Positions 2,576-23,361 of a DNA stretch of 26,455 bases are shown piece after piece (the first letter of the stretch is position 1; the number at the start of each line of letters is the position of its first letter). Source of the stretch: a virus; IMG/VR virus record IMGVR_UViG_3300025168_000561, positions 1 to 26,455 of that record. One strand, written 5' to 3'. A program made the translations under genes and the position numbers. A model generated the notes under the pieces. It was given only the letters and a program-made list of their open reading frames with translations. It was not told the DNA's origin and made no database searches.

Positions 2576-2723
2576 TTGGGAGAAGATGCTTGCCGATTCA
2601 CTGGTAAGAGCAGAGACTATGAGTAACGTAATGAAGATGGTAGATGAGGCTGTCCGTAAGAGTCAGGCCGATTATGAGAAGCGAACCACTAAAGAACAAC
2701 GAAAAAAAGAAGAGGGGAAATAA
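2568..2723 (+). CDS. Small charged helical protein, 51 aa
   Basis: ATG at 2568 has AAAGGAGAG upstream and the frame runs 51 codons to TAA at 2721. The peptide starts MSDWEKMLADSLVRAETMSN and ends in a very basic/acidic tail (TTKEQRKKEEGK). It looks like one continuous amphipathic helix, possibly a coiled-coil. It overlaps the previous gene by eight bases, and its stop is one base before the next start (TAAGATG). This tight packing plus the ribosome binding site supports a real gene. Function unknown; a dimerising adaptor is possible. Confidence 0.7.
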   Translation: MSDWEKMLADSLVRAETMSNVMKMVDEAVRKSQADYEKRTTKEQRKKEEGK

Positions 2724-2724
2724 G

Positions 2725-3768
2725 ATGAGTCACGAACTAGATATGAGTAATGGTAGAGCGAACATGATGTATGCTGGTGGTACACCATGGCACGGTTTAG
2801 GACAGCATGTAGGGGACGAGGCAGTAACTGCCGAAGAAGCTATTATGGCAGCGGGCCTAGACTTTAGTGTTGGCCTTCAGAAGATGTACGCTGAGTATGA
2901 CGTAGACGGTAGTCAGATTGAGATTCCAAACAACTTTGCTGTAGTCCGAGACGACACTAAGTCTGTACTAAGTGTAGTCGGCGGCAAGTACACTCCTATT
3001 CAGAACAAAGATTGCTTTGAGTTTATGGATGCTATCGCCGGTCCCGGTAAGCTAGTTCGCTACAATACAGCGGGCTCTCTTCACGGCGGTCGTAAGATCT
3101 GGCTACTAGCTGAGCTTACTAACCTTACCTTTGAGCCTGTACCCGGCGACGTAGTTAAGCCCTACCTCGCGCTTATCAAGGGCCACGACGGCATTACCCC
3201 GTTGACTTCGTTCTTTACTTCTACTCGTATTGTATGTCAGAATACAGCGAACATGGCACTGGGCGAGGCTAGGAAGAACAAGGATACTATGGTTAAGATC
3301 CGACATACCCAAATGGCTATGAACAAGGTTGAGGAGGCCCAACGTATTCTTGGTCTAGCAGTAGAGCGAGCCGAGCAGTACGGTGAGGTCATGCAGAGTC
3401 TAGCCAAGAAGCAAATGAACGGACTAGACTGGGCTGTATTCCTTAACGATATGTTCCCAGTACCTGAGATCCCAGAGGGCAAAGACTCTAGTCGTGCTGC
3501 TACTATTGCTAACAAGCGGCACGAGCAGCTTACTGAACTATTCGAAGCTGGTGTAGGTACTGACATCCCGGGTGTTAGAGGTACAGCTTGGGGCGCTTAC
3601 AATGCGGTCACCGAGTTTACTACTCACCACGCTCAGACTAGAACTGGTGTGGCTAAGGAAGATACTAACTTCGACCGAGCTAGGAACGAGAGCCTACTGT
3701 CCTCGTCTTGGTTTGGTACCGGCGCTAAGACTAATGCCAAAGCTATGGAGCTTTTGGTCGCAGTCTAA
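2725..3768 (+). CDS. DUF932 / phage-plasmid-like protein (TIGR03299 type), 347 aa
   Basis: The N-terminus carries a GGTPWHGLGQHV segment and then a VVGGKYTPIQNKDCFEFMD segment, followed by LRYN-type and FFTSTRIVCQNTANMAL segments. These are the landmarks I know from DUF932 proteins (TIGR03299), which are widespread in phages and plasmids and often sit near recombination or replication genes. Their biochemical activity is not established; links to DNA recombination or processing are guesses from context. ATG at 2725 is used because AGAGGGG precedes it and the previous stop lies immediately before; the longer frame from 2644 only repeats the previous gene in another frame. A terminator-like hairpin follows at 3775-3832, which suggests that this protein is made at a higher level than those downstream. 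Confidence 0.85.
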   Translation: MSHELDMSNGRANMMYAGGTPWHGLGQHVGDEAVTAEEAIMAAGLDFSVGLQKMYAEYDVDGSQIEIPNNFAVVRDDTKSVLSVVGGKYTPIQNKDCFEFMDAIAGPGKLVRYNTAGSLHGGRKIWLLAELTNLTFEPVPGDVVKPYLALIKGHDGITPLTSFFTSTRIVCQNTANMALGEARKNKDTMVKIRHTQMAMNKVEEAQRILGLAVERAEQYGEVMQSLAKKQMNGLDWAVFLNDMFPVPEIPEGKDSSRAATIANKRHEQLTELFEAGVGTDIPGVRGTAWGAYNAVTEFTTHHAQTRTGVAKEDTNFDRARNESLLSSSWFGTGAKTNAKAMELLVAV

Positions 3769-3844: not shown

Positions 3845-4045
3845 ATGCCAATATACGAGTTCAGATGTAGAGACTGTAGTCATCGATCAGAGAAGCTAGT
3901 TCGTAATGAGCTAGCTATTCCTGATTGTACTTGCGATGACTGCGGTAGTAATAAACTAGAGAGGCTTATGTCATCCTCTACCTTTATCCTTAAGGGAGGA
4001 GGTTGGTACGCTGATGGCTACACTAAAGGGGGTAACGATGAATGA
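3845..4045 (+). CDS. FmdB-family zinc-ribbon protein, 66 aa
   Basis: The start MPIYEFRCRDC, the second cysteine pair C-DDC-G and the end ILKGGGWYADGY match the FmdB-type small regulatory zinc ribbon (MPxYEYxCxxC ... PxCxxC ... LKGxGWY). Four zinc ligands are visible in two pairs (RCRDC and CTCDDC). The family is found in bacteria and phages and is thought to be regulatory or DNA-associated, but its precise role is not known. GGAGGT precedes ATG 3845 with a good spacer. The stop TGA overlaps the start of the helicase gene (ATG 4038), so the two are probably co-translated. It is the first gene after the 3775-3832 terminator. Confidence 0.85.
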   Translation: MPIYEFRCRDCSHRSEKLVRNELAIPDCTCDDCGSNKLERLMSSSTFILKGGGWYADGYTKGGNDE

Positions 4046-5501
4046 GCCATGGAATATGCCTAAGGTAAAGAGCCGCGTTAAACCTTGGGTCTTAGAAGAT
4101 TACTTAACAGACTACCAGAAGGAAGCATGGAAGTGGAGTACTAACCGTAACGACGCTATGTTATGGTGGGCCTGCGGAGCGGGTAAGACTTTAGCGGCGC
4201 TGCTCTGGTTGATACTAAAGTCTAACGATAAGAAGCTAGTTGTTACTAGAGCACCGGCTAAGAACCAATGGAAGTTTCAAGCCGCTCAGTACACCGACCT
4301 TAAAGCCAACGTACTCACGGGCTTTAAGCCCGCTAAGATCGGAAAGGATGTAGAGTGTGTCATTATCTCTTGGGAGATGCTGCCTCATTGGTGGAAAGAG
4401 ATACTGTGCTGGTCTAAAGATGAGGGCCTAGCTGTAGTCTGGGATGAACTACACAAAGGTAAGGACTGGAAACGTAAAGAGAAGTACGTCTCATCAACAG
4501 GCTATGTAGGCTACCGGTGGAAAGACAATAGGGCAGCGGCAGCGGCTAGGCTTAGTAACGCCGCTAAGCGTAGGCTAGGACTCACGGCTACGCCGATTAG
4601 AGATCGAAGGTCTGACCTATGGGCACAACTAGACTTAGTTTATCCCGGAGAATGGGGATCTAACTGGGACTTTATTCATAGGTACTGCGATGCCAAGCCC
4701 GGGGAGTACGGCGGCTTAGACACTACTGGAACTAGTAACTGTGACGAGCTTAAAGGAAAGCTGTCTGACGTAGCACATACTGTAGCTTACGCTGAGATGG
4801 CTAAGTCCCTACCAGCTAAGCGTAGGCAACAAGTGTACTTACCTCCTGAAGATCAGAACCGCCCCGTAGGTTTTAAGGCTGAGTTTAAGAGGATGGCCAA
4901 AAAAGGTAAGCAAGCTCAATTCGAGATGCAGTTACTAGAGGCAGCATCCCGTAAGCATAAGTGGATAGCAGAGACTGTGGCCGGACTCGTAGAGTCAGGT
5001 CAGAAGGTAACTGTGTTTACTGGTAGGCGTAAAGACTGTGAGAAGCTGGCTAAAGCTATAGCCACTAAGCTCAAGAAGCTAAAAGGTTCTCAGCTATGGA
5101 GTGGACATGGGGGTAATTCTTTAGCAGATAGACAGCAGATGGTAAAGGAATACGCAGAGTATGATGGGCCGGGTGTCTTAGTCGGTACGACTGACGCTTT
5201 TGGTGAAGCTATCGACGGACTCCAAAATACTGACACGGCGATATTCGCCTTACTTCCTTGGACACCGGGACAAATAACTCAAGCAGAGGGACGATTTTCA
5301 AGACAAGGCTCGACACGTCCAGTGCTTATCAGTTACGTCATCGCCGAGGGAACGGTAGACGAACGAGTGGCAGACGTACTACTGGCAAAATTAGAAGACG
5401 TACAAGATACATTAGACGACGAAGAGGCAGGAGGAGTGGCCCGTACCCTGTCAGGGCAAGACGATGAAGAAGCAATACTAGAAAAACTATTTAATATGTG
5501 A
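4038..5501 (+). CDS. SF2 DNA helicase/translocase (SNF2-like), 487 aa
   Basis: Helicase motifs are in order: Q-like YQKEA near residue 26, Walker A GAGKT at 47-51, DELH (motif II) at 136-139, LTATP (motif III) at 182-186, a LVGTTDAFGEAID segment near 381-393, and QAEGRFSRQG (motif VI) at 415-424. Spacing and the QAEGRxxRxG ending fit SNF2/DEAH-type SF2 ATPases that move along duplex DNA. The C-terminal tail (from about 455) is very acidic. ATG 4038 with AAGGGGGT upstream is preferred to an in-frame ATG at 4014 that lacks a ribosome binding site. The likely role is unwinding or fork remodelling during phage replication or recombination. No DnaB-type helicase or primase is seen in the window, so this may be the main helicase visible here. 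Confidence 0.92.
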   Translation: MNEPWNMPKVKSRVKPWVLEDYLTDYQKEAWKWSTNRNDAMLWWACGAGKTLAALLWLILKSNDKKLVVTRAPAKNQWKFQAAQYTDLKANVLTGFKPAKIGKDVECVIISWEMLPHWWKEILCWSKDEGLAVVWDELHKGKDWKRKEKYVSSTGYVGYRWKDNRAAAAARLSNAAKRRLGLTATPIRDRRSDLWAQLDLVYPGEWGSNWDFIHRYCDAKPGEYGGLDTTGTSNCDELKGKLSDVAHTVAYAEMAKSLPAKRRQQVYLPPEDQNRPVGFKAEFKRMAKKGKQAQFEMQLLEAASRKHKWIAETVAGLVESGQKVTVFTGRRKDCEKLAKAIATKLKKLKGSQLWSGHGGNSLADRQQMVKEYAEYDGPGVLVGTTDAFGEAIDGLQNTDTAIFALLPWTPGQITQAEGRFSRQGSTRPVLISYVIAEGTVDERVADVLLAKLEDVQDTLDDEEAGGVARTLSGQDDEEAILEKLFNM

Positions 5502-5792: not shown

Positions 5793-6638
5793 ATGGCTAA
5801 GTTCTTGATCGATCCCGGTCCTTCCCGTAAAGGGTGGCACCGGCTGTCTAAGGCATTGCGTTGTCCTAGACTATATGCTCTGTCTTATAAGACGGAGAAG
5901 CGTACATCTGACATACCTCCGGCAGAACCGTTAATCAAGGGCTCCCTGTTCCATGTCGGACTGGCTCACCACTACGGACTACAGTCTAATCTGTACGAAG
6001 ATAAAGAGCTTTACTCTGGTGCCGACGCGATTCAGGCTCTGGCCCAGTTACAGCCTCCGGGACATAGAGCCGCATGGCAACGCTATGTACCTCAAATGCA
6101 GGAGACACTAGCCGCCTACATACTACACTGGTCCGCAGAGCAGTGGAACGTAGAGGCGATTGAACATGAGCTATGCGTTAACGTTTACGACGAGAAGATG
6201 AATGACACCTACTTCTACACCCAACGTGTAGATTTAGTGTGGCAGCATCCGATCACCGGTAAGGTCTACTTTGTAGATCACAAAACGACAAACAGATTTA
6301 GCGGTAAAACAGTAGGCGGCTACTCTATGAACGGACAGTTCATTGGCTACCAGATGATCGGAGAGAAGATGTTCGGTGATCGATGGGGCGGAGTACTACT
6401 GAACGTGATTGAGTGGGGCAAGGGTGGAGCGTCTCCAACCTTTAATCGTACGTCTATCGACCCAGCCCCTCACAGCGTTGCCAATTTTAAGACGACAATA
6501 ATTAGTGCAGAAAGAATGATAAGGGAGTTTGAAGACGTGGAACCATCACTTTGGCCCGCTACTCATCATGAGTCAGCATGTTGGGCCTACCGTAAATGTA
6601 AATTCTATGAGACGTGCCAATGGGGGAGTAAGACATGA
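5793..6638 (+). CDS. PD-(D/E)XK nuclease, Cas4/RecB-like with Fe-S cysteines, 281 aa
   Basis: HRLSKALRCPRLYAL at 16-30 matches the SxxxxxxCPRxY start of Cas4/AddB-like nucleases. The core RVDLVW (D147) then VDHKTT (D162-x-K164) is the PD-(D/E)XK active site, and QFIGYQ at 182-187 is the following QxxxY-type motif. C24 together with C263, C269 and C275 (spacing C-x5-C-x5-C near the end) is the arrangement that binds a 4Fe-4S cluster in this group. Such enzymes degrade or resect single strands from DNA ends. The start at 5793 has AGAGG upstream. The next gene starts inside its stop (ATGA). With the neighbouring Sak4-like ATPase and SSB it probably forms an end-resection and annealing module. 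Confidence 0.9.
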   Translation: MAKFLIDPGPSRKGWHRLSKALRCPRLYALSYKTEKRTSDIPPAEPLIKGSLFHVGLAHHYGLQSNLYEDKELYSGADAIQALAQLQPPGHRAAWQRYVPQMQETLAAYILHWSAEQWNVEAIEHELCVNVYDEKMNDTYFYTQRVDLVWQHPITGKVYFVDHKTTNRFSGKTVGGYSMNGQFIGYQMIGEKMFGDRWGGVLLNVIEWGKGGASPTFNRTSIDPAPHSVANFKTTIISAERMIREFEDVEPSLWPATHHESACWAYRKCKFYETCQWGSKT

Positions 6639-7525
6639 GTATATTCGCTATCCAATATGGACCTGCTAAGACAGGCAAGACACTTGCAAGTGTGAGAGCT
6701 TTCCCTGACGGTTTGTTCATCGCACCAAAGGGCGCGCTCACTTGCGCTAGATGGCTCAACTGGGAACCCAAGGTCATCGAAGCCGGTGAGTCGCTTAACT
6801 TTGGGCACATCACTACTATGATCAAACAAGGACAAGATAAATACCCCGCTATTATTGTGGATGACTTTAGCATCTTGTGTGACCAAGAACTTGCTAGGTG
6901 CAAGCAGAGTCACTCGGGGTGGTCAGCCTTTGATGCCTTTAACCAGAGGGTCTATGACTTGCGAGACGCAGCCCGGGCGGCTGACTGCCACGTTATCCTA
7001 AATATGCACGAGCAACCTCCTAAAGAGGTAAAGAAAGATACTGGGAATAAGTACATCCCGGGCTCACCGCTTATCCCCGGATGGCAGTTACCTGAGAAGC
7101 TGCCCGCTATGGCCGACCTCGTGATCCGAGTGATCTACGACGAGGACAGTTCGATCGGATGGCCCTACATGTACCAGTCAGGCCCCGATGCGGACTACAT
7201 CACAGGCGATCGCCTAGCCATTACGCCCGAAAAATTTCCCCTCAACTTGAGGGAGGTGTTACTACTGGCGGGCTACGATGTCCCGAGGCCAAAGGCATTG
7301 CAGTTTATGGATGAGCATGTAGAGGCTATTAGCCTTGAGCTTGCCGAGCAGTTGGAAGAGAGGAGACCTAAGCTAAAGCCGATATTGGCTTTCCACGCTA
7401 AGAAACTAAAAGAGGAGGGAGTAGACGACAGACATATTAGATGGATATTTGCAGATGCCCTTGACCGGGCACAACTTAGAAAACATAACAATAATTTGCT
7501 AACTAATTTCGTGAACACACTATAG
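6635..7525 (+). CDS. RecA-fold ATPase, Sak4-like single-strand annealing/recombination protein, 296 aa
   Basis: Walker A GPAKTGKT lies at 9-16 and the Walker B strand AIIVDD at 72-77, followed by a sensor-like HVILNMHEQ segment around 134-142. A P-loop right at the N-terminus and a RecA-like core without RecA's N-terminal domain is the plan of phage Sak4-type ATPases, which promote strand annealing or exchange together with a cognate SSB. The next gene is indeed SSB-like. The C-terminal part (from about 225) is charged and helical and is not recognised. The start overlaps the nuclease stop by four bases (ATGA), with GGGGGAG upstream. Other RecA/AAA phage ATPases cannot be excluded. Confidence 0.8.
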   Translation: MSIFAIQYGPAKTGKTLASVRAFPDGLFIAPKGALTCARWLNWEPKVIEAGESLNFGHITTMIKQGQDKYPAIIVDDFSILCDQELARCKQSHSGWSAFDAFNQRVYDLRDAARAADCHVILNMHEQPPKEVKKDTGNKYIPGSPLIPGWQLPEKLPAMADLVIRVIYDEDSSIGWPYMYQSGPDADYITGDRLAITPEKFPLNLREVLLLAGYDVPRPKALQFMDEHVEAISLELAEQLEERRPKLKPILAFHAKKLKEEGVDDRHIRWIFADALDRAQLRKHNNNLLTNFVNTL

Positions 7526-7536
7526 GAAAATAAAAA

Positions 7537-8025
7537 ATGTTTAACTTTGATTTCAGTAACGTCAGTATCAATCAGTCTCCTCGATCTTCGGGAGTCTTTC
7601 AAGTCAAGATTACTAGCATGGAGTGCTACGAGTCACAGACCGGCAACGCCCGTATCCGAATCAAGGGTACCGTAGAGGAGGGAGAGTCTAAAGGCTGCTC
7701 CATCAACGACGGTATTAACTTGCCTAAGACTCCGGACGATAAGGTTCTGGGTATCTGGTTGCGGTTCTTTAGCTCTCTTGGCATGAGCCCTTCAGAGGTT
7801 CGGGAGACCTTTGCTAAAGACTTCAAGACTATGGAAGAGGCAGCGGACTACATTGCTAAGGAATGTACCGGACTCATCGGCTACTGCTACTACGCTCCGG
7901 CGGTAGACGACAAGAGTTGGCCTACTCGTAAGTGGGTTACCGCTGATCAGTACACTTCATCTCAGGAAGTGTCCAATGGTAAGGGCAAGTCTGACGATGC
8001 TCTCGGCGAGTTCATGAGCTTCTAG
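7537..8025 (+). CDS. Single-stranded-DNA-binding-like protein (DUF669 type), 162 aa
   Basis: The N-terminal 60 residues read as OB-fold-like strands (GVFQVKITSMECYESQTG, ARIRIKGTVEEGES), as in DUF669 phage proteins. The last ten residues DDALGEFMSF form an acidic, Phe-ending tail like the protein-interaction tip of bacterial SSB. It directly follows the Sak4-like gene, the expected partner. The start at 7537 is preceded by TAGGAAAATAAAAA. A strong terminator just after the stop (8034-8071) fits a protein needed in large amounts. The function as SSB is inferred from shape, tail and context, not from a firm motif. Confidence 0.75.
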   Translation: MFNFDFSNVSINQSPRSSGVFQVKITSMECYESQTGNARIRIKGTVEEGESKGCSINDGINLPKTPDDKVLGIWLRFFSSLGMSPSEVRETFAKDFKTMEEAADYIAKECTGLIGYCYYAPAVDDKSWPTRKWVTADQYTSSQEVSNGKGKSDDALGEFMSF

Positions 8026-8087: not shown

Positions 8088-8309
8088 ATGACATTAGATG
8101 CACCTGAAGTAGATGCCCTAGAGCGTCTACTAAGAGAGTGGCAGGTAACACGCGCAAGCTGTTCGCCACTAGAGCGGCTAGGGTTCTATCGACTAAAGAA
8201 GAAGGGACGTGTCCGCATTAGACGCGGGGTGTACTACGCACCCGAGTTAGAATCCGACGAAGAATTCGATGAATGGTTTAAGTGGTTTGAGGTGAGTCTT
8301 GGGATTTGA
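8088..8309 (+). CDS. Hypothetical protein, 73 aa
   Basis: The frame is open from 8031, but the first 19 codons lie across the terminator, so I use ATG 8088, preceded only by a weak CCGGGGG. The protein has an acidic N-terminal helix (PEVDALERLLREWQ), a basic middle (LKKKGRVRIRRGVYYAP) and an acidic aromatic end (DEEFDEWFKWFEV). No family recognised. The basic RVRIRRG strand could touch nucleic acid. Its last codons overlap the TTG start of the polymerase, and its coding sequence supplies the polymerase ribosome binding site (GAGGTGAG), so polymerase translation may depend on it. Confidence 0.65.
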   Translation: MTLDAPEVDALERLLREWQVTRASCSPLERLGFYRLKKKGRVRIRRGVYYAPELESDEEFDEWFKWFEVSLGI

Positions 8310-10758
8310 TAAAGCTAAATGTGATAAGTGTCCGTTGAAACAATACTGGAAAAGAGAGAAGTGTTGGGACCCGGTAGATTTCATCCACGCTGAAAACAAA
8401 GAGGGAATCCTTATTCTGGGCGAGGGACCCTCTAAGACTGACGCCCAATTAAATGCGCCGTTCTCTGATGCTAACGGCGCGTTCGTTGTAGAACAAATAC
8501 AAGAGAACGGACTGAAGCGTAGCGACATAGCATGGGGAAACATCGTGGGCTGTAGGTGGCCTCACGACGACCCTAAGACATACCTCGCACGCCTTAGGGC
8601 AACCAATAGGCGTAGGGCTAAGAAGGGCCAAGAGCCCTACCTGAGTCCGATAGAGGCGTGCTCGGCTCACGTCCGTGAGAGTATGGACACCTACCAAACC
8701 ATCTTACCCATGGGCTCTTACGCTACTAAGTTTGTGTACGAAGGTAACCCAAAGCTAGACGCAGTTAGAGGTGGACCCGCAGTACGGGGCGATTTCAAGG
8801 TACTACCTACTTATTCTCCTAGTTATATGGTTAAGCAACCCAAGTTTAAGGGCATACTAAGTGCCGACATCGCTAAGATGTTACGGCACCATAAGGGAGA
8901 ACTGAACTGGAAAGACCCTAGTGTAAGGTACACGCCCGACTACGAGGAAGCCAAGGCTTTCTTCGAAGACGTAAGGGGCCAGCTTCTAGCTTACGACGTC
9001 GAGACTGACGGTGTGGACTGTTTAACTACCGACCTACGTTGTGTGGGTATCGGTACTGTAGACCGCGTACTAATCATACCGTTCGTGGGCATCGACGGGG
9101 TAAGCAGATTCTACAAGGCTGATGAAGAGCAGTGGATGAAAGACTTGCTCCGGGATGTATTTACGGATCCGGGACACCTAAAGGTCGGACACAACGCAGG
9201 TTACTTCGATAGGCTTGTAGTAGAGCAGCACCTCGGCGTAACGCCTGAGCCCTTGGTAGACACCATCCTGCTCCATAAACTAGCCGCCTCCGAGCATCGC
9301 CACGGACTAGGGTTCATCGGTTCGTTCTTAACTGACGTACCAGCATGGAAGGCAGACCACACTGGAGTAGTAGCTAGGACAGACCGAGAGTTACACGAGT
9401 ACTGTGCAACCGACGTAGCCGTCACCGCACGCATTACCAAGCCCTTGAGGGAGAGTGCTAAGCGCCGAGACCAGCTTAAGTTGTATGGCTTCGACGCTAA
9501 GGTACAGGACATCTGTGTCGGTATGCGTAGGATGGGTATGCGTATCGACGAAGGCCGGAGAGCGGCGCACGAGAAGCGACATAAGGAAAGCTCGGAGAAG
9601 TGGCAACGCATACTCTACGGGCTACAACCTGATGTACATCCTAATTCACCGACTCAAGTTAGAGAGTTATTGTTTAGTGACTGGTGCTTGCCACCTAAAG
9701 AATTCACCAAGACAGGCGAGCCTAGTGTGGGTGCGGATGTACTACGGTCACTGGAGGCTAGCAGTGCAGTTGCAGAAGAACAGCGTAAGTACATTAACGC
9801 TTTACGTTTCTACCGTCGTGACGAGAAGATGCTATCTACTTACTTAAAGAAGCTCCGGCCTAACGCTGGACTAGTACGGGATAGCTATGTTTACCCCAAC
9901 TGGAACTCACATGGTACGGTTACGGGACGCCTCTCATCTAGTGGTCCTAACTTCCAGAACATACCACATAGTCTCCGTGACATGTTCATACCGCCGAAAG
10001 GATGCGTATTCGTCGGGGCAGACTACGACCAATTGGAACTACGCTTCGCCGCAGCATTGGCAGGAGCCTCGCACTACCTAGATGCCTTTGAGAAGAAGGA
10101 GATCGATCCCCACAACCTAACTGGGGATCTCATGTTCGGAGCTAGGTTCTGGGAATCAGAGGGCGCACCTACAAACAAGATGGGTAAGGGTAAAGGTCAG
10201 TTCAAGCGGATGCGTAACTTGGCTAAGACTATTTGCTTTGCCTCACTGTACGGCGCGGCAGCACCTAAGATCTACGATCTAGTTACGAGTAACGAGGACA
10301 ACGATGGCAACCTACTGTACGCTCATTACAAGCTCCAGCAGATCCGTGTCCTCCACCGGAGATGGAAGGATCGAGCCCCACAATTTGCAAAGTGGTGGAA
10401 GAAAACCTTGTCAGGATGCCGGTCCACGGGATACGTCGAGGAGGTCGTGATGGGACGGCGGCGCTTCTTCGCCCAAGAGGATTACAATGCAATCCTCAAC
10501 TTCGGGGTACAAGCGGGGGGCTTCGCCGTAGTCGCTAACGGCATGATTGAATTGGTAGAAGACCACCTACCATTCGACTTTAACAACAAGATTGGCTTAG
10601 TGAACCAGCTTCACGACGCTGTAGTATTCACGGTGAAGGAGGGAAAAGCAGAAGAGACGCAGAAGATTGTAACTGAAGTGCTAACGAGGAGGGTAGAAGG
10701 TCTACCCGTAGAATTCACAGCAGAGGCCGACATTGGCCAAACATGGAAGGAAGTATGA
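8299..10758 (+). CDS. UDG-like / 3'-5' exonuclease / family A DNA polymerase fusion, 819 aa
   Basis: Residues 1-200 resemble family 4 uracil-DNA glycosylases: C8-DK-C11, LILGEGPSKTD at 38-48, FSDANGAFV, NIVGC85RW and the EAC121 cysteine, together a full set of Fe-S ligands. The usual TYHPxxLL motif reads TYSPSYMV, with Ser173 in place of the histidine. Residues about 225-390 are a proofreading exonuclease (YDVET with D233/E235, GHNAGYFD, YCATD). Residues about 400-819 are a family A polymerase: TGRLSSSGPNFQNIP at 542-556, motif A DYDQLELR from D575, motif B R639..K643..F647..YG at 651, motif C LHDAVV at 771 (HDA, not HDE). TTG at 8299 is used because TGA lies in frame at 8293, AGGTGAG precedes it and CDKCPL must be included. 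It is the replicative polymerase. Confidence 0.92.
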   Translation: MGFDKAKCDKCPLKQYWKREKCWDPVDFIHAENKEGILILGEGPSKTDAQLNAPFSDANGAFVVEQIQENGLKRSDIAWGNIVGCRWPHDDPKTYLARLRATNRRRAKKGQEPYLSPIEACSAHVRESMDTYQTILPMGSYATKFVYEGNPKLDAVRGGPAVRGDFKVLPTYSPSYMVKQPKFKGILSADIAKMLRHHKGELNWKDPSVRYTPDYEEAKAFFEDVRGQLLAYDVETDGVDCLTTDLRCVGIGTVDRVLIIPFVGIDGVSRFYKADEEQWMKDLLRDVFTDPGHLKVGHNAGYFDRLVVEQHLGVTPEPLVDTILLHKLAASEHRHGLGFIGSFLTDVPAWKADHTGVVARTDRELHEYCATDVAVTARITKPLRESAKRRDQLKLYGFDAKVQDICVGMRRMGMRIDEGRRAAHEKRHKESSEKWQRILYGLQPDVHPNSPTQVRELLFSDWCLPPKEFTKTGEPSVGADVLRSLEASSAVAEEQRKYINALRFYRRDEKMLSTYLKKLRPNAGLVRDSYVYPNWNSHGTVTGRLSSSGPNFQNIPHSLRDMFIPPKGCVFVGADYDQLELRFAAALAGASHYLDAFEKKEIDPHNLTGDLMFGARFWESEGAPTNKMGKGKGQFKRMRNLAKTICFASLYGAAAPKIYDLVTSNEDNDGNLLYAHYKLQQIRVLHRRWKDRAPQFAKWWKKTLSGCRSTGYVEEVVMGRRRFFAQEDYNAILNFGVQAGGFAVVANGMIELVEDHLPFDFNNKIGLVNQLHDAVVFTVKEGKAEETQKIVTEVLTRRVEGLPVEFTAEADIGQTWKEV

Positions 10759-15444: not shown

Positions 15445-15730
15445 GGGAAGGACCCGCTAAAGCTGGATTCATTGCTGTAGACGCTAACATCATAGTGTCG
15501 TGTCCCAACAATCCTCCGATAAGAATAAGGCCGAGGACGATGGTTTGCGGGTTTTTAAACGCGGTACTCCAGTCGCCTTGGTTCTGTACTGAAAGTATTG
15601 TAAGTTGAGCTTCAATGCGATCTAAGGTTTTGACCGAATGTTTCTGTTCGTTTTGTACCATAGCAAGAGTCTCACGGATTCCGCCAACTTGGTCTTCTAA
15701 ATTGGTTACTCTTTGATCCAGACTGGACAT
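15428..15730 (-). CDS. XhlA-like coiled-coil plus membrane-segment protein, holin candidate, 100 aa
   Basis: Residues 1-50 form a heptad-like coiled-coil (LDQRVTNLEDQVGGIRETL, then VKTLDRIEAQLTIL), followed at about 63-76 by a hydrophobic stretch (IVLGLILIGGLLG) and a second weak one ending the protein. This is the plan of XhlA-type haemolysin/holin accessory proteins and small tail-associated membrane proteins. No endolysin sits next to it; the endolysin candidate is on the other strand at 11711. The ATG shares its A with the stop of the giant gene (TAATG), so translation is coupled. The promoter for the next gene lies in its last codons. Lysis is likely, a virion membrane role possible. Confidence 0.6.
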   Translation of the reverse strand: MSSLDQRVTNLEDQVGGIRETLAMVQNEQKHSVKTLDRIEAQLTILSVQNQGDWSTAFKNPQTIVLGLILIGGLLGHDTMMLASTAMNPALAGPSLDIVP

Positions 15731-18700
15731 TATCGCTTGCCTTTTCTTTTATTAGACTGCCTAAGTTGTTCGGCCTCTACGTTTATCGTACCAATTAGAG
15801 CATCGATCTCGGCGCTAGGCCACTTATCGTCGTCACGGTAGTTACTAATTAGTTCTAACAGTTCTTGGCCTTCGGGGGAAGACTTAAATTCATCTGTTAT
15901 GCGACCGTCTGTTGGGCCGTACCGTAAAGCAAAATACGCCTGACCCGTGTCGCTTAGTTGCCAGTCAACAAGCTTTTTGTAATTGGCCTTGTAGATCTTA
16001 AGCTGTGCGGCGTCTAAATTAGCTGCAATGTTAGTGGGGATGTTGTCACTATAATCGGTATCGAGACTTGCGATTGCTTTAGAACGATTAACTTGTTCTT
16101 GGTGTGCTTTCTGATTGCTAACCGTCAAAGATATATCACGTTCAGTGTAATACACTTGATCGGATGGATCCCAGTTCCGGCGAGGCATAAGGTCCATTAA
16201 TACTCGGACTGTCTGGAGCCGTGTTTCGAAGCCGGTAGGATCTTCGCTCGCGTACTGAAGGACTTCTTCCGGAGTCATACCCGCAAACACAAGCCCAGCG
16301 AGTTGCTCGTACATCCCAAACTGCCGAGTACCTAGTTGCCATAGCATGTCAAATACTGGATCAATCGGACCTACAAACCCAATACGTCTCTCACCTTTGG
16401 CCGCGATATTGCCCCGACCCATCGTCTGATCTTGTAGATAAACTACGCGCTCCATTGGGAACCCGAACGCAGTGAGGAACTCGTACATTGCAAGGTCACC
16501 TTTCTTGACCTTTCTTGATTCCGCCTGAGAGCCCCAGCTTCCGGGGGTAGTCAAGCCCGATTGCTTCGCAAGGGCCTGACCCGCGGACGCATACACCGGA
16601 GCCATCAGTTCTAACACTACGTCAGCCGCCAGTTCTTTAGCTTTCTTTGGATTCGTAGCAAGAGGTACCTTAGTACCGTCGGGAGCCAGCATCGTAGCAG
16701 TTGAAACTCCGACGGAGATCATAGCTGTAGCTAAATGGTAGAACATAAGGCCAGTCTGTACGTCCGAGAATGGCCTGAGAGTGTCTGCATACGCAGGTCG
16801 GAAGTAACCTTCTTTGCGTTGTAATTCGATTGCATGTTCGGGGTACACACCTGTGCCCACGATAGGCATATCTTGAATGTAGTTAGGCATATCGGTCCAC
16901 TTAGCCCATTCACGCTTAAGGTCTTCGCCCGTGGGTTGTTCCCCGTCCCACTCAGGGCTGATCGGGGGCGTGCCCGCGTGTAGTAGTAAGTGGCCCTTAT
17001 GTCGTTGAAGCTGAGTACTACCACGAGCGTACCGCTTGGCCCATTCACGTCCACCCACACGGCTGTGCTCGGTAAACATACGCAAGTAGTGTGCTACTGC
17101 GTTTTTTTGTAGGGTGTAGAACAAGATCCAAGACGCCAGATAATCTCTTTCCAACTTAGAGATAGAGGTTGTCCAATCGAACAGTGCGTTGTTCATCAGC
17201 CCGCGAGCCTCGTCAGGTGTCTTACCTCGCATCCGTTGTAGTAGGTAGAAAAAGGCACGTTGACGTGTCGTAGCTTCAGAGATCACGTCTTGGAACCACC
17301 GATACGCCACGAACAGCGGTACGCCTGCGGATGCGCCCGCCTTTCCAAACCAGATCACCCCGTCAGTCACGTTATAGCCACGCATACCTACCATACGTCG
17401 TACTGCGTCTTTGTTGGCGGCATCGGATAATGTGTTTACAAACTGATCTTCAACGCCCGCAGACCGCATTTCGACCAACGCCTCGCCAGCAGTCATCTTT
17501 AACTCAGGAATAAATGTGTCCCCACCTTCCATCAGTTTCAAAAACGCCGCGTTGGTGTTGGCGTCTAAAACGCCGGGAACTCCACCTGACGTACCGTTAG
17601 CTTTAAGGAACTCGGATGCTTTAGTCTGTACGTTGAAAGGTAGATAGCCCATGGCGGTGAAGGCGCTGAGGCCGATTGCGTCCTTGAGACCTAGAACGAT
17701 GTGTTTCTGACCCATATCGCCCCATAAAATAGACGCGACAAACGAAGGCCGACCACCGTACCCAAACAAAATCTGAGCAAACAGTGCTCTTTGCATCGTA
17801 AGTAGCTTATCGAGAACTGAACTCCCCATTCCGTTAGCCATGTACCGAAGCATTACAGATTTAGACCCCGTAGCTAAGTCAGCGGATACGAGTTGATCGA
17901 TCTCTTTACCCATCTTCTGATGTATTTCGGCAAGATCTGAGATTCCACTCGCAGGAAATTGCTGAAGTAAGTAGCCGTCTCCCGCTAGGCCTACGGTAAT
18001 TAACTTCTGGTACGCCGTAAACGCTTCCGCAGCTAAGTCTGTAAGCTTACGGACATTTCCTTTTACCGCCGCGTCCTTGCCTGCGTCAGATCGCCCAACA
18101 CTGTCAATGTACGCCATACCCAATGCTTCAGAGGCGACATACGCATCCAACAAAGAGAAGTTAGCATTGCGATGCGCTATCTCATCAAGCCCGAGGCCTT
18201 TGACGACAGTCCCAGTATTTGGATCCCAAACGTCGATTAGTACACGTTCGGTGTCGGTAGCCACCGCCAACTCCCGCACTCGCTCCGGGGTTAGTGGAAC
18301 ACCTTCACCTTCAACAACGTCTGTTTTAGGACGCTCTGTAGTGTACATTCTGACAATCTGAAAGGGCTGCTTGTTTAAGTGCTCAGCCCCTAGTTGCTCA
18401 ATAGTCATGTCCCGACGTATTGGTGGTGCATCACCTTCTTCCAAACGCTGAGTTACGGGAACAGTACCGAGGTCATCGCTCTTAAACGGACGAGCCCCAA
18501 CTTGCCTCTCGGGCTCAAAGAACGCTGGGGCAGTGCCTGCTATTTGCTCAGCTACGTCGCGCTTCTGAGGTGCTTTACCGGATACTGGACGTTCTTTATC
18601 TTGTACAATCCAGTCGGTCCACGCTTGTAGGTCCGTTCGTAACCAGACACGATCGTCTACTCGAAAGGTCCGATTGGCGGCTTGAGTACCTTCCATCTGC

Positions 18701-21700
18701 CCCTGACCCGTAATTGTATTCAGTGCCATTCCATAATCGTAGGCGCTGGTCCGAGGCCCTGTAAGCTCTAGAAAACCTTTGATGGCATCATCAAACAACG
18801 CACCTTGAACGATAGCCATTTGGAACCTAAACATAGACAACCGTTCAGATTTACTAACGCCTCCGTCCCGTACAACGGTCTGTAACGGCATTTCCGCTTC
18901 AATGGCTTCGAGGATCGCGCCGCGTAGGTCGTTCATCTCGTAGTTACCAAACCGAAAAGGCTCGTCGGCCCTAGACTCTCCAATCAACCACTCATACACC
19001 CTTTTCTTAATCGCGGGTAGTTTTTCCGAGTGCCAATCTTCACGCGCAATTACAGATAAGTCACTGACGAACGATGAAATCGCAGCATCCATTGCAAAAT
19101 CGGGCATGTTTTCGCCCATAGGTTTTAGTCGCACTGCTTGTGCCAGTTGCCACGATCGGTCGAGCATTCGATCTAACATCGACGTACTGAAGCCCGCTGC
19201 GGCCCAGATGTGTAGGCCCGTCCGCTTTGTGTAGGGCAACAATCGGTACCGAGCCTCTACCGTCCGTACTCGCTGGTCAGTAGTCGTTAGGATGTCGTTA
19301 ATCATAGTGTTGGCTTCGTCGTACCGCATCCGGGCCGTGTCTGTGGTGTCCGAGTAATCTACCCTACCGGCAACGTGGTCCCAGATTTTATAAAAATCGG
19401 CGGCAATATGGGTGTACTGTACAAACTTACGGCGAGCCACGTCGTCAATCTCAGGGGCAAGACGGGCGCTTAGGGCACGTTGTCGCATCCGGAACATCGG
19501 AAGTAGCTCAAACACTCGCTGAGACGCAGTAACTGCCCAGACTTGCCAGACATTCTGAGAATGAAACACCGGACTAGGAATAAACCAGTGTTGGTTCCTA
19601 TGATTTAAATGCAAGATCCCAGTGGGGTTCTTTAATAGTTTAACGGCTGCGCGTGCGGAGATAATGGTGTGGCCGACATCGTTAATCTCGAAACCGCCGG
19701 GATCTCGTGCCTTAGCGTCTAGGTCATCAATCCAGCTTTCATCAAACACACCTAGAGATCTTGTATCCTCTGGAAGACCAAACTCTGTCCGCACATCGTT
19801 TACGGTACGATCCGCTTCTTTGACAGCACTCTCCGCGACTTGGTAGGCTTGACTGTTCATTACTTCAACAGGGTTATCAGCGTCTTTAAGTAATGCTCTT
19901 TTCTGTTCGTCGGCCTTCAACCACACACGTTGTGCGGCTTTAACCACCCGACGAGCCGTTGCCGTAGACTTAGTAGTTACAGGAGCGTCTTGACGTACGT
20001 CCGCAATTTCTTCCCGGACAATATCCAAAGCTGCTTTTATATCTGGATTAGTCTTGGCCGCGCCTTCGACTGCTGCGGTCATTTCTTCGGGAGTAGCTTT
20101 ACCTACGATAGCATTTTCTAGTGCAGTCCACTGCTTTGGAGTTAAGTCACCAGCCGCCGCAATCGCTCGGGCCTGCCGGTACAAGGACCGAACGTAATCT
20201 TGAAGGTATTTTGCTGTAACGGCGTCAAACTTAGCGTTGTCAATTAGATCGCCTAAAAAAGCCTCGCGATCAGTCATCTTTTCGACGTTAGCTTTATGTC
20301 GTTCTAGGTCCGATCTGACTACCGATATTTCTTCCAATACATTGGTCGTTCTTGCGGTAAAAGTACCGTCGCTTTCAACCTCTCGTCCCGGCCTTTCGGG
20401 TACAAGCCCGTCGGCGTCCTGTGTTCTCCGGTTTGTAGCTATTTCCGCAATCTGCGCGTCAAGCTCGTCGGCTTTGGCGCTTAGTTCCGCAGCCGTACCC
20501 TCAGCACGTTCTTTCGCTGTTTTTAAGCTGAGGTCTACATCCGAGTCCCCTATGGCTTTATCGGGAGCACCCTCTAGAATTTGAGACATCCGTTCAAAAA
20601 GCACCGCACGAATAATGGCATCACCCTCCGCGGTTCCAATTAATTGAAGCAAATCCGTCATCTTCTGTTGAGGAAGGATACCTTTGTTCAAGAGTCCTTG
20701 GGCGAGGGCAATCAGTTTTCCCTGTTTAGAAGGATCTGAAAAGTCGCCTGCTTCCCTAAGATAATCAAATACATCCTCTAGGAATTTTAGGTCAGATACA
20801 CTAGCATTAGGTAGTAGTTCTTGGACCCGGTTCTGTACGCCTTCATGGGTCAATCGTTCGGCTAAGCCCTGTTGGACGATTAGTTCTTGTTGGAACCTAA
20901 GTTTTAGGTCCTGTACGTCTGATGCCACAGAATCTAGTAAGTGGTTCAGCGCCTCTTCTGACCCTGCGGCACGCTCTTGGGACAAACGCTTCGACTGTGC
21001 AGCGTTCTCACGGGCCTCCGTGGCACGTTGTCCTAGCTCTTTATACGCTTCGACTAACGCTAGATTGGATGTGTCCCGCAGCGAGGACTTTACCCCTCTT
21101 TGTGACTCGGCGTCTAAGCGCGCCGTCATTTGTAGTGGGATACCTACACCGTCGTCGGCGTCAATGATTGCTTGTACGTCACGGACTAACTTGTCGGCTG
21201 CTTCTACGTCCAAAGTACCCGACATAGCTTTATCAAAATTAGGTACACCTTCGATGCCGTCCGCAATGGCCTTACTAGACCGTGTGGCCACATTTTCCAT
21301 ACGCCGCGCTCTACGCGCTCTGCCGGATTTAGCCAGAGACGTCCCAAGAGCCGCGGCCTCTAGTGCTCCCGGGGTACGCATCATCGCAGCAATGGCCACA
21401 ATGCCACCCAAGCCAGTTGTTCCGGCTTCAAACTTCTTACTGGCGTCCTCGCCAATCACACGCGCCAGTAGCGGGCGGATAAACGCCTCGCCAAATTCGG
21501 CTACAAACGTGCCTCCAGCGTAAGAGTCTTCGGCCATGTACACGAGGTTGTCAGGTGTACCTACAACCTCCAACATGTATTTAATAATCCGTAGTTCACG
21601 GCCAATAATTCCATTACCTTCCGCTATCTCCCTGTCCATCGCCTGTACGAATGCGCGAGTGTACACTTCAGTCAAAGGATCTACGGTCTTAAGAAAATAA

Positions 21701-23361
21701 TCTACTTCATTCGTACCTACGACATCGCCGAGCAGTGGATGGGCCAACTCCCCTTCCTTCAAGGGCTCCTCTAGAAGTACTAAATTTCCGTCCTCTTCAC
21801 GCCTTTTCCGTACGGCTCCACCATGGAGCTTAGTTACTCCGGACATAAACATAGCGTCAATGATACGGGAAGGGAGTGTACTGTCGCCGTAAGTACGTCC
21901 GGATAGTTCAGGTAACATCAAGAAATCAGATGTCGCCTGTGCAGTAGCACGGCCCGCAAACGCTGCGATGTCTCCGGGCATACTTACCTCACCCTCGGGC
22001 ATTACATCTCCACGGATATAGGAGTCTACTACTCGGTATGGATCTTTGTGTACCGTAGTTCGGTACCCTTTGTACGCGCTCTGGTAGTCCGTCTCAGCGC
22101 GGGCAATAGCCCGGTCGCGGATACTCTCTACAGTCAGGTCAGCGGACAGCATTGGCTGTTCAGCTTCTGTACCTGATTTCTGTGCCTGCTTAAGACGTCG
22201 GTTGTAACTCCACACCATGTCGTTCCACTTGTCGATTGCGATGCCGTCGTCTAGGGCAATCTCAGTGGCGATCATAGGTATCATGGATTGAAATGCGGCG
22301 TCAGACGCGAACATGACCCCGGTAGGAGTTGCATGAAAAGGGGCTACTACCCGCATAGGGTTGTACTGTTCTTCGTTATTGAGTTGTCTAACACTAGGTA
22401 GCGTCTCGCGTACTACAGCGCCTGACATAGACTGGGGAAGTAGTGCCGCCATCTCAGGATGCGCTGCCATCATGGTCATACCTGCGGTAGACATCATGTA
22501 GACTCTGGGATCTGTTTGGTCCCCAAGAATCTCGTCAATAATCGGGTTGTTATTCAGACTACGCAATTCTTCATTAAGTTCGTCGTCCATGAATTTAACA
22601 ACACTACTAACTATCTTACCATCCATAGAGACGTGTACGGTAATATGGGAGTTACCTTCTTCCGTTAGCTCCGTCATCCGATCATTAAACTTCTTTGACT
22701 GATCGTTTTCGGCTTTGTAATCTGCCCCAAAGTTGTCCCAGAGTTCAGGTATGGTTTCGTAATCTCTACCTAGATTGTCTTTGGCCCACAGCCCGACAAT
22801 CTCTGCGGCGGGAAGACTGATAGCCTGATAAGGGTCTACATCGCCGGGGTCTATGTCACCTAAATCATTAAACGCAGGGTGCCCAAACTCGTAAGGGGTC
22901 CGGTTCGCAAAAGCGTCTACTAGGTCTTTTTGGAGAACATTTAAATTCTCAGCAGTAGGCTCCATTTTGTATTCTTCGAGCATGTTAGCCAGACGAGTGT
23001 CGATGTCGTCGTAGCCCGTTTGACCCATACCTGCGCCCGAAGGCCCACCACCCAACCAAGTAGGTGCGATTGCCTTATACGTTCCGACAAGGAACCCACG
23101 CGGATCCGAAAATAGCGTCCGACGTTCGCCCATTTCGTCCGCAATCTCACGCTTTGTACCAATGTCTACAAGTTCGCGCTCCGGCTTCTCTTCCTCAGAA
23201 AAAGCTGTAGGGTCAAACTCGGGTAAATCAGAGGTAGTGTCCGACGTCTGATCAATTTCCGGTAGGTCTAGACCAGCGTCCGGGGCAGATGTTTCACTGC
23301 TTGGACTTACTGCCTTGGTAGAAGATGTTACGGTACGGGAGGCGCGACTTGGCAGACTCAT
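15730..23361 (-). CDS. Giant internal virion / DNA-ejection protein, gp16-like position, 2543 aa
   Basis: It takes up over a quarter of the window. The first 60 residues are Ser/Thr/Asp/Pro-rich and disordered. Long charged helical stretches follow (about 780-1150, with LRFQQELIVQQGLAERL and ELSAKADELDAQIAEIA). Hydrophobic segments occur near 648-672 (GLGGIVAIAAMM), in the 1840-1910 region (LFAQILFGYGGRPSFVASIL) and near 2205-2227 (FYHLATAMISVGVSTATML). Around 2054-2094 is FDWTTSISKLERDYLASWIL followed by FYTLQKN, a segment I associate with large phage polyvalent/internal proteins (LPD38-like). No lysozyme, RNA polymerase or protease motif is found. By size, order and membrane-interacting segments it corresponds to T7 gp16-type ejected proteins. 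It overlaps the previous gene by 68 bases and has CCCGGAG before ATG 23361. Confidence 0.75.
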   Translation of the reverse strand: MSLPSRASRTVTSSTKAVSPSSETSAPDAGLDLPEIDQTSDTTSDLPEFDPTAFSEEEKPERELVDIGTKREIADEMGERRTLFSDPRGFLVGTYKAIAPTWLGGGPSGAGMGQTGYDDIDTRLANMLEEYKMEPTAENLNVLQKDLVDAFANRTPYEFGHPAFNDLGDIDPGDVDPYQAISLPAAEIVGLWAKDNLGRDYETIPELWDNFGADYKAENDQSKKFNDRMTELTEEGNSHITVHVSMDGKIVSSVVKFMDDELNEELRSLNNNPIIDEILGDQTDPRVYMMSTAGMTMMAAHPEMAALLPQSMSGAVVRETLPSVRQLNNEEQYNPMRVVAPFHATPTGVMFASDAAFQSMIPMIATEIALDDGIAIDKWNDMVWSYNRRLKQAQKSGTEAEQPMLSADLTVESIRDRAIARAETDYQSAYKGYRTTVHKDPYRVVDSYIRGDVMPEGEVSMPGDIAAFAGRATAQATSDFLMLPELSGRTYGDSTLPSRIIDAMFMSGVTKLHGGAVRKRREEDGNLVLLEEPLKEGELAHPLLGDVVGTNEVDYFLKTVDPLTEVYTRAFVQAMDREIAEGNGIIGRELRIIKYMLEVVGTPDNLVYMAEDSYAGGTFVAEFGEAFIRPLLARVIGEDASKKFEAGTTGLGGIVAIAAMMRTPGALEAAALGTSLAKSGRARRARRMENVATRSSKAIADGIEGVPNFDKAMSGTLDVEAADKLVRDVQAIIDADDGVGIPLQMTARLDAESQRGVKSSLRDTSNLALVEAYKELGQRATEARENAAQSKRLSQERAAGSEEALNHLLDSVASDVQDLKLRFQQELIVQQGLAERLTHEGVQNRVQELLPNASVSDLKFLEDVFDYLREAGDFSDPSKQGKLIALAQGLLNKGILPQQKMTDLLQLIGTAEGDAIIRAVLFERMSQILEGAPDKAIGDSDVDLSLKTAKERAEGTAAELSAKADELDAQIAEIATNRRTQDADGLVPERPGREVESDGTFTARTTNVLEEISVVRSDLERHKANVEKMTDREAFLGDLIDNAKFDAVTAKYLQDYVRSLYRQARAIAAAGDLTPKQWTALENAIVGKATPEEMTAAVEGAAKTNPDIKAALDIVREEIADVRQDAPVTTKSTATARRVVKAAQRVWLKADEQKRALLKDADNPVEVMNSQAYQVAESAVKEADRTVNDVRTEFGLPEDTRSLGVFDESWIDDLDAKARDPGGFEINDVGHTIISARAAVKLLKNPTGILHLNHRNQHWFIPSPVFHSQNVWQVWAVTASQRVFELLPMFRMRQRALSARLAPEIDDVARRKFVQYTHIAADFYKIWDHVAGRVDYSDTTDTARMRYDEANTMINDILTTTDQRVRTVEARYRLLPYTKRTGLHIWAAAGFSTSMLDRMLDRSWQLAQAVRLKPMGENMPDFAMDAAISSFVSDLSVIAREDWHSEKLPAIKKRVYEWLIGESRADEPFRFGNYEMNDLRGAILEAIEAEMPLQTVVRDGGVSKSERLSMFRFQMAIVQGALFDDAIKGFLELTGPRTSAYDYGMALNTITGQGQMEGTQAANRTFRVDDRVWLRTDLQAWTDWIVQDKERPVSGKAPQKRDVAEQIAGTAPAFFEPERQVGARPFKSDDLGTVPVTQRLEEGDAPPIRRDMTIEQLGAEHLNKQPFQIVRMYTTERPKTDVVEGEGVPLTPERVRELAVATDTERVLIDVWDPNTGTVVKGLGLDEIAHRNANFSLLDAYVASEALGMAYIDSVGRSDAGKDAAVKGNVRKLTDLAAEAFTAYQKLITVGLAGDGYLLQQFPASGISDLAEIHQKMGKEIDQLVSADLATGSKSVMLRYMANGMGSSVLDKLLTMQRALFAQILFGYGGRPSFVASILWGDMGQKHIVLGLKDAIGLSAFTAMGYLPFNVQTKASEFLKANGTSGGVPGVLDANTNAAFLKLMEGGDTFIPELKMTAGEALVEMRSAGVEDQFVNTLSDAANKDAVRRMVGMRGYNVTDGVIWFGKAGASAGVPLFVAYRWFQDVISEATTRQRAFFYLLQRMRGKTPDEARGLMNNALFDWTTSISKLERDYLASWILFYTLQKNAVAHYLRMFTEHSRVGGREWAKRYARGSTQLQRHKGHLLLHAGTPPISPEWDGEQPTGEDLKREWAKWTDMPNYIQDMPIVGTGVYPEHAIELQRKEGYFRPAYADTLRPFSDVQTGLMFYHLATAMISVGVSTATMLAPDGTKVPLATNPKKAKELAADVVLELMAPVYASAGQALAKQSGLTTPGSWGSQAESRKVKKGDLAMYEFLTAFGFPMERVVYLQDQTMGRGNIAAKGERRIGFVGPIDPVFDMLWQLGTRQFGMYEQLAGLVFAGMTPEEVLQYASEDPTGFETRLQTVRVLMDLMPRRNWDPSDQVYYTERDISLTVSNQKAHQEQVNRSKAIASLDTDYSDNIPTNIAANLDAAQLKIYKANYKKLVDWQLSDTGQAYFALRYGPTDGRITDEFKSSPEGQELLELISNYRDDDKWPSAEIDALIGTINVEAEQLRQSNKRKGKR

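Follow-up and report, generated by a model that had tools for sequence, protein, structure and literature searches.

The window analysed here is a whole stretch of 26,455 nucleotides of viral DNA (IMG/VR record IMGVR_UViG_3300025168_000561, positions 1 to 26,455). It carries a polymerase ORF preceded, on the same strand, by a replication module between positions 4014 and 8025. The genes and domains are, in window coordinates:

4014-5501, plus strand, helicase (Pfam/PHROG match)
5793-6638, plus strand, PD-(D/E)XK exonuclease (Pfam/PHROG match)
6635-7525, plus strand, Sak4-like AAA protein (Pfam/PHROG match)
7537-8025, plus strand, putative SSB (Pfam/PHROG match)
8299-10758, plus strand, ORF of 819 amino acids with a TTG start, uracil-DNA glycosylase (UDG)-like / 3'-5' exonuclease / family A DNA polymerase
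8299-8913, plus strand, N-terminal UDG-superfamily domain, residues 1-205 (PF03167)
8938-9453, plus strand, 3'-5' exonuclease domain, residues 214-385 (PF01612, E=1.3e-12; Exo motif YDVET present)
9574-10752, plus strand, family A polymerase domain, residues 426-818 (PF00476 DNA_pol_A, E=1.2e-51)

Upstream of the replication genes, a DUF932 / phrog_1221 protein is encoded at 2644-3768, and the minus strand at 15730-23361 holds an ORF of 2543 amino acids with zero Pfam or PHROG matches.

The Pfam UDG family PF03167 matches residues 36-182 of the polymerase ORF (E=1.1e-13), and the domain scores 52.0 bits against a gathering cut-off of 24.3, which places it in the UDG superfamily. phrog_17 spans residues 30-818, and by both Pfam and PHROG the UDG, exonuclease and PolA parts lie in a single ORF. 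Phage polymerases having this layout are an established group (PHROG 17). The start position is shared with close relatives, the codon being TTG in loci L004 and L005 and GTG in L002 and L003.

An AlphaFold2 model of residues 1-217, made with 22 relatives as input, has a mean pLDDT of 88.5, and a model of the full-length polymerase from 30 relatives has a pLDDT of 82.8. The best fold and sequence matches of the N-terminal domain are family-4 UDGs, from Thermus thermophilus (Tth UDGa, 1ui0/1ui1), Thermotoga maritima (TM0511, 1l9g/1vk2) and Sulfolobus tokodaii (4zbx). In Foldseek the best PDB entries were 1l9g, 1ui1, 1vk2 and 4zbx, with E-values of about 1e-13 to 5e-12 and TM scores by target of 0.73-0.75. 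UdgX of Mycobacterium smegmatis ranks second after family 4, a phage family A polymerase (9qhs) was also matched, and many of the fold matches in a viral structure library are phage PolA polymerases. The UDG-like fold proposed in the original prediction is thereby supported, although the end of the domain moves from position 8898 to about residue 205 (nucleotide 8913).

The following residues and segments of the domain were located by alignment and from the model:

8320-8331, plus strand, C8-x2-C11, first pair of predicted [4Fe-4S] ligands
8419-8430, plus strand, motif A (motif 1), G41-E42-G43-P44, at the aligned position of family-4 GEGP/GEAP
8461-8463, plus strand, F55, corresponding to F54 of Tth UDGa, which stacks on the base (alignment)
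8539-8541, plus strand, N81, corresponding to N80 of Tth UDGa, which reads uracil (alignment)
8551-8553, plus strand, C85, third predicted cluster ligand
8572-8622, plus strand, Arg/Lys-rich helical insertion, residues 92-108 (DSSP of the model; alignment)
8659-8661, plus strand, C121, fourth predicted cluster ligand
8809-8832, plus strand, motif B (motif 2), T171-Y172-S173-P174-S175-Y176-M177-V178, where S173 (8815-8817, TCT) replaces the catalytic His
8866-8910, plus strand, C-terminal helix and linker to the exonuclease, with D190, R196 and W204

The four cysteines align with those of family 4, motif A has the GE(A/G)P form of that family, and the Asn of motif 3 that pairs with uracil is present. 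Motif B departs from the family pattern HP[SA].(L/V)(L/V)R and reads SPSYMVK. The intact cysteines and GEGP, and the change of TYHPxxLL to TYSPSYMV, were thus found where they had been predicted. An Arg/Lys-rich insertion had been placed at about residues 96-112; it does lie between the third and fourth cysteines, but is predicted as a single helix covering 92-108. Besides Ser at the motif-2 His, the domain differs from family 4 in having Gly84 for K83 and Asp90 for N89 of Tth UDGa (by alignment), in the helical insertion and in being fused to a polymerase.

The insertion (LARLRATNRRRAKKGQEPYLSP) has no His. From R86 to C121 there are 36 residues, as compared to 16 in the plain fused family-4 domains L100, L101 and L105. 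UdgX, also an Fe-S UDG, likewise carries a basic insertion between its third and fourth ligands, and the window's insertion sits where UdgX has its R-loop but lacks the cross-linking His. It differs from UdgX in that the KRRIH His and Q53 are missing, the motif-2 His is lost, motif A reads GEGPS and not GEQPG, and the insertion is a helix and not a loop.

A sequencing or assembly error was considered as the source of Ser173 and rejected, since contigs of several metagenomes (L002-L005, L007-L009) have the same Ser. The search of relatives suggested in the original prediction thus did recover the same fusion with the same substitution in independent metagenome contigs, the Ser codons at position 173 being TCT, TCA or TCC. 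No compensating His was found elsewhere in the domain on the alignment: the window has His at 30, 89, 124, 197 and 198, none of them enriched in proteins lacking the motif-2 His. At position 16, His occurs in 50% of the non-His proteins vs 24% of the His proteins, but the window has another residue there.

A related ORF was present at 140 loci, collected by scanning IMG/VR and supplemented by a few annotated phages. Of these loci, 74 were complete enough for alignment, and they reduced to 55 representatives under 97% identity, of which 49 belong to the window's own family. Cellular or prophage relatives were looked for in genome contigs, where 60 pattern matches gave 0 confirmed cases. The same phages have no second, free-standing UDG; each matching record has one, within the polymerase ORF.

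All 49 family representatives carry the UDG domain, and all four cysteines, D190, R196 and W204 are invariant among them, as is R157 in the family alignment. Asn103 of the insertion helix is present in 46 of the 46 representatives that have the insertion. At position 173 we found His in 29, Ser in 10, Ala in 6, Thr in 2, and Gly and Pro in 1 each, all 20 replacements being small residues; in one protein (L129) the His is shifted one residue earlier (PAHAP), making its state at 173 less sure. Position 81 is Asn in 22, Tyr in 13, His and Thr in 5 each, and Phe and Leu in 2 each, and position 55 is Phe in 31, Trp in 11, Leu in 6 and His in 1. P44 is invariant, and the position of E42 is Asp in 31 of the 49. 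The catalytic Asn and His are conserved no better than an average position of the domain, 58% and 44% of positions, respectively, being more conserved.

The whole active site is retained in only 11 of the 49. Among the positions compared, the window, L002 and L004 depart from a complete site solely at the His. Most relatives keep the His yet often lose the Asn, a pattern absent from the original prediction. In one branch of 11 members (L016 and ten related proteins) the His is kept, with Tyr81 and Trp55 instead of Asn and Phe; this is a different route to losing the pocket.

A tree was built from the exonuclease and polymerase columns only, with the UDG columns excluded. By parsimony on the 52-row tree the His changes 7 times, the Asn 10 times and the cysteines 0 times; on a mixture-model tree of 42 rows, with the longest branches left out, the figures are 4, 10 and 0. 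Within the window's supergroup the AU test does not reject a single loss of His (p-AU 0.089), and we therefore speak of several His changes overall and give no precise number; some of the apparently repeated losses may be one event. The direction was probably loss from an intact ancestor, as suggested by intact outgroups and controls. As controls, 22 further viral UDGs were retrieved with a Moorella phage UDG, and every one retains Asn and His; the Asn figure is biased by one search pattern that included this residue, and the His was in no pattern. At least 6 of the 22 are also UDG-exonuclease-PolA or UDG-PolA fusions, and therefore fusion alone does not bring about loss of the site.

Between L002 and L004, both of which have Ser, dN/dS is 0.056 for the UDG domain, 0.060 for the exonuclease and 0.063 for the polymerase; the values against the window itself are similar, but there dS is saturated. 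Since its ratio is like that of the other two domains, the Ser-bearing domain is not decaying, and strong purifying selection of this kind indicates that it is kept for a purpose.

What the domain may still do chemically can be judged from mutants of the two closest families. In Tth UDGa, H155S essentially keeps Km (7.6e-7 M against 9.7e-7 M before the change), whereas k2 drops about 3000-fold, from 0.23 to 7.2e-5 per s; N80A and F54A also lower the efficiency (PMC5387724). UdgX H178A and N91A are folded and inactive, and K94, the equivalent of Tth K83, is required for folding and activity (PMC10776899). By alignment, the window domain is a natural counterpart of H155S, with Gly and Asp in addition at the K83 and N89 positions. 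From H155S, its uracil excision is predicted to be about 1000-fold or more below wild type. We infer, with good support from H155S and H178A, that excision has been lost, which bears out the original emphasis on a changed active site with intact cluster cysteines.

Cysteines, N103, R157, R196 and W204 are held while the pocket residues vary, and this argues for a structural or DNA-holding role over base recognition. We therefore regard it as fairly probable that the domain descends from a family-4 UDG, does not excise, and is kept as a structural or DNA-holding part of the replicative polymerase. A conserved Fe-S cage, fold core, Asn103 and C-terminal helix with linker fit such a domain. On this reading a [4Fe-4S] cluster would still be bound by the cysteines and would stabilise the fold, which together with the basic helix and the C-terminal linker would dock on the exonuclease/polymerase as a non-catalytic module and help to keep DNA near it. 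Were the domain to excise uracil while the phage copies its own DNA, an abasic site would be left ahead of the fork, and it is plausible that catalysis was repeatedly abandoned for this reason. Against the structural or DNA-holding role, E42, G43, P44, F55 and N81 of the window could be read as a retained binding pocket.

Archaeal family B polymerases have a read-ahead pocket for uracil. An analogous role here, in which the domain binds template uracil uncut and stalls or signals to the polymerase, is rather unlikely. It draws on the purifying selection, on GEGP, F55 and N81 standing next to Ser173 in the window, L002 and L004, and on the retained Km of H155S on uracil DNA (PMC5387724). Near kin vary in the pocket, however, with His81 in L031, His55 in L037, Tyr81 in L007 and both His81 and Leu55 in L038, L039 and L114, and the reading Asn is retained in fewer than half of the family. 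Gly84 stands where the equivalent Lys of UdgX is needed for folding and activity, and no match to dUTPase (21 records), ThyA (17) or ThyX (21) was found in records that may be incomplete. The template sensor of the original prediction is thus weakened by the altered pocket in close kin, where uracil binding is not conserved, and may hold only for the window's own small lineage; the structural alternative raised with it fares better. That this lineage has a natural pseudo-glycosylase of the H155S type, coupled to the polymerase as a uracil read-ahead sensor of an origin unrelated to the archaeal pocket, is unlikely, and if true would mean such a sensor in a bacterial virus.

We consider it decidedly unlikely that the domain is a glycosylase that remains active by an altered mechanism or on another substrate (such as a different deaminated or modified base), with Ser173 and E42 working in a manner like family 2. 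Motif A is intact, the domain is under purifying selection, and motif B differs between UDG families, that of family 2 being without His (PMC10359453). In the two closest families, however, H155S and H178A leave little or no activity, and the relatives share no common new residue, motif B having Ser, Thr, Ala, Gly or Pro, and position 81 varying as well. A vestigial domain heading for loss is very improbable: the UDG part does evolve faster (window/L002 identity 0.75, vs 0.84 for the exonuclease and 0.88 for the polymerase), and the domain of SPO1 gp31 is also without the cysteines, but a dN/dS of about 0.06, the invariant residues listed above and the presence of the domain throughout the family stand against it.

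The UDG-polymerase fusion itself is already known, as the original prediction stated. In the passages of PMC7412058 consulted, PaBG gp205 and the polymerases of the Lupandier group have an N-terminal UDG domain followed by 3'-5' exonuclease and PolA; these passages present the domain as a uracil-removing activity and report no loss of the active site. Bacillus phage SPO1 gp31 likewise has an N-terminal UDG-like domain on PolA (PF03167, E=4.8e-23). It is the mirror image of the window (L102:3450-4100), the four cysteines and motif A being lost (QENP) and the His kept (MIHPNT). The phiLo phage family A polymerase 9qhs (1142 amino acids, released 2026-03-25) matches the UDG fold in its N-terminal part (Foldseek E=1.6e-6). 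The sequence match to the window domain covers chain residues 13-119, and thus would start too close to the N terminus for the first Cys pair.

What is new, as read from the sequences, is how the domain has evolved in a family of marine phage polymerases: the cysteines are fixed, and the catalytic residues appear to be lost repeatedly. A partial literature search turned up no earlier account of a UDG domain on a polymerase in which the cysteines are conserved and catalytic residues have been lost more than once, which leaves novelty unproven. Within the family, the polymerase-fused UDG domains form a natural series, ranging from a complete site (11 of 49) to disarmed ones with the Fe-S ligands fixed throughout, by which a role of the Fe-S UDG fold in a phage replicative polymerase, beyond excision, becomes testable. 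It also follows that a 'uracil-DNA glycosylase' label given automatically to a phage polymerase is no proof of activity.

In several other phages (L097, L100, L101, L102 and L105), thymidylate-synthase-like, dUMP-hydroxymethylase or dCMP-deaminase genes lie close to the UDG-PolA gene, and the description of 9qhs states that its structure was solved with a modified template. From these neighbours and this template, a link between the fusion and modified-thymine DNA is worth testing. Unlike SPO1 and some other fusion phages with adjoining thymidylate-synthase-like genes, the phages of the window's family have no such hint of uracil or modified-thymine DNA; a genome of this kind in the window's lineage was rejected as a candidate, with thymidylate synthase, dUTPase and ThyX unmatched in 17-21, possibly incomplete, records. 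In Pseudomonas phage ZY21 (L107) an ORF carrying the annotation DNA polymerase III alpha subunit has a UDG-like match at its 3' end, possibly a fusion to another polymerase family.
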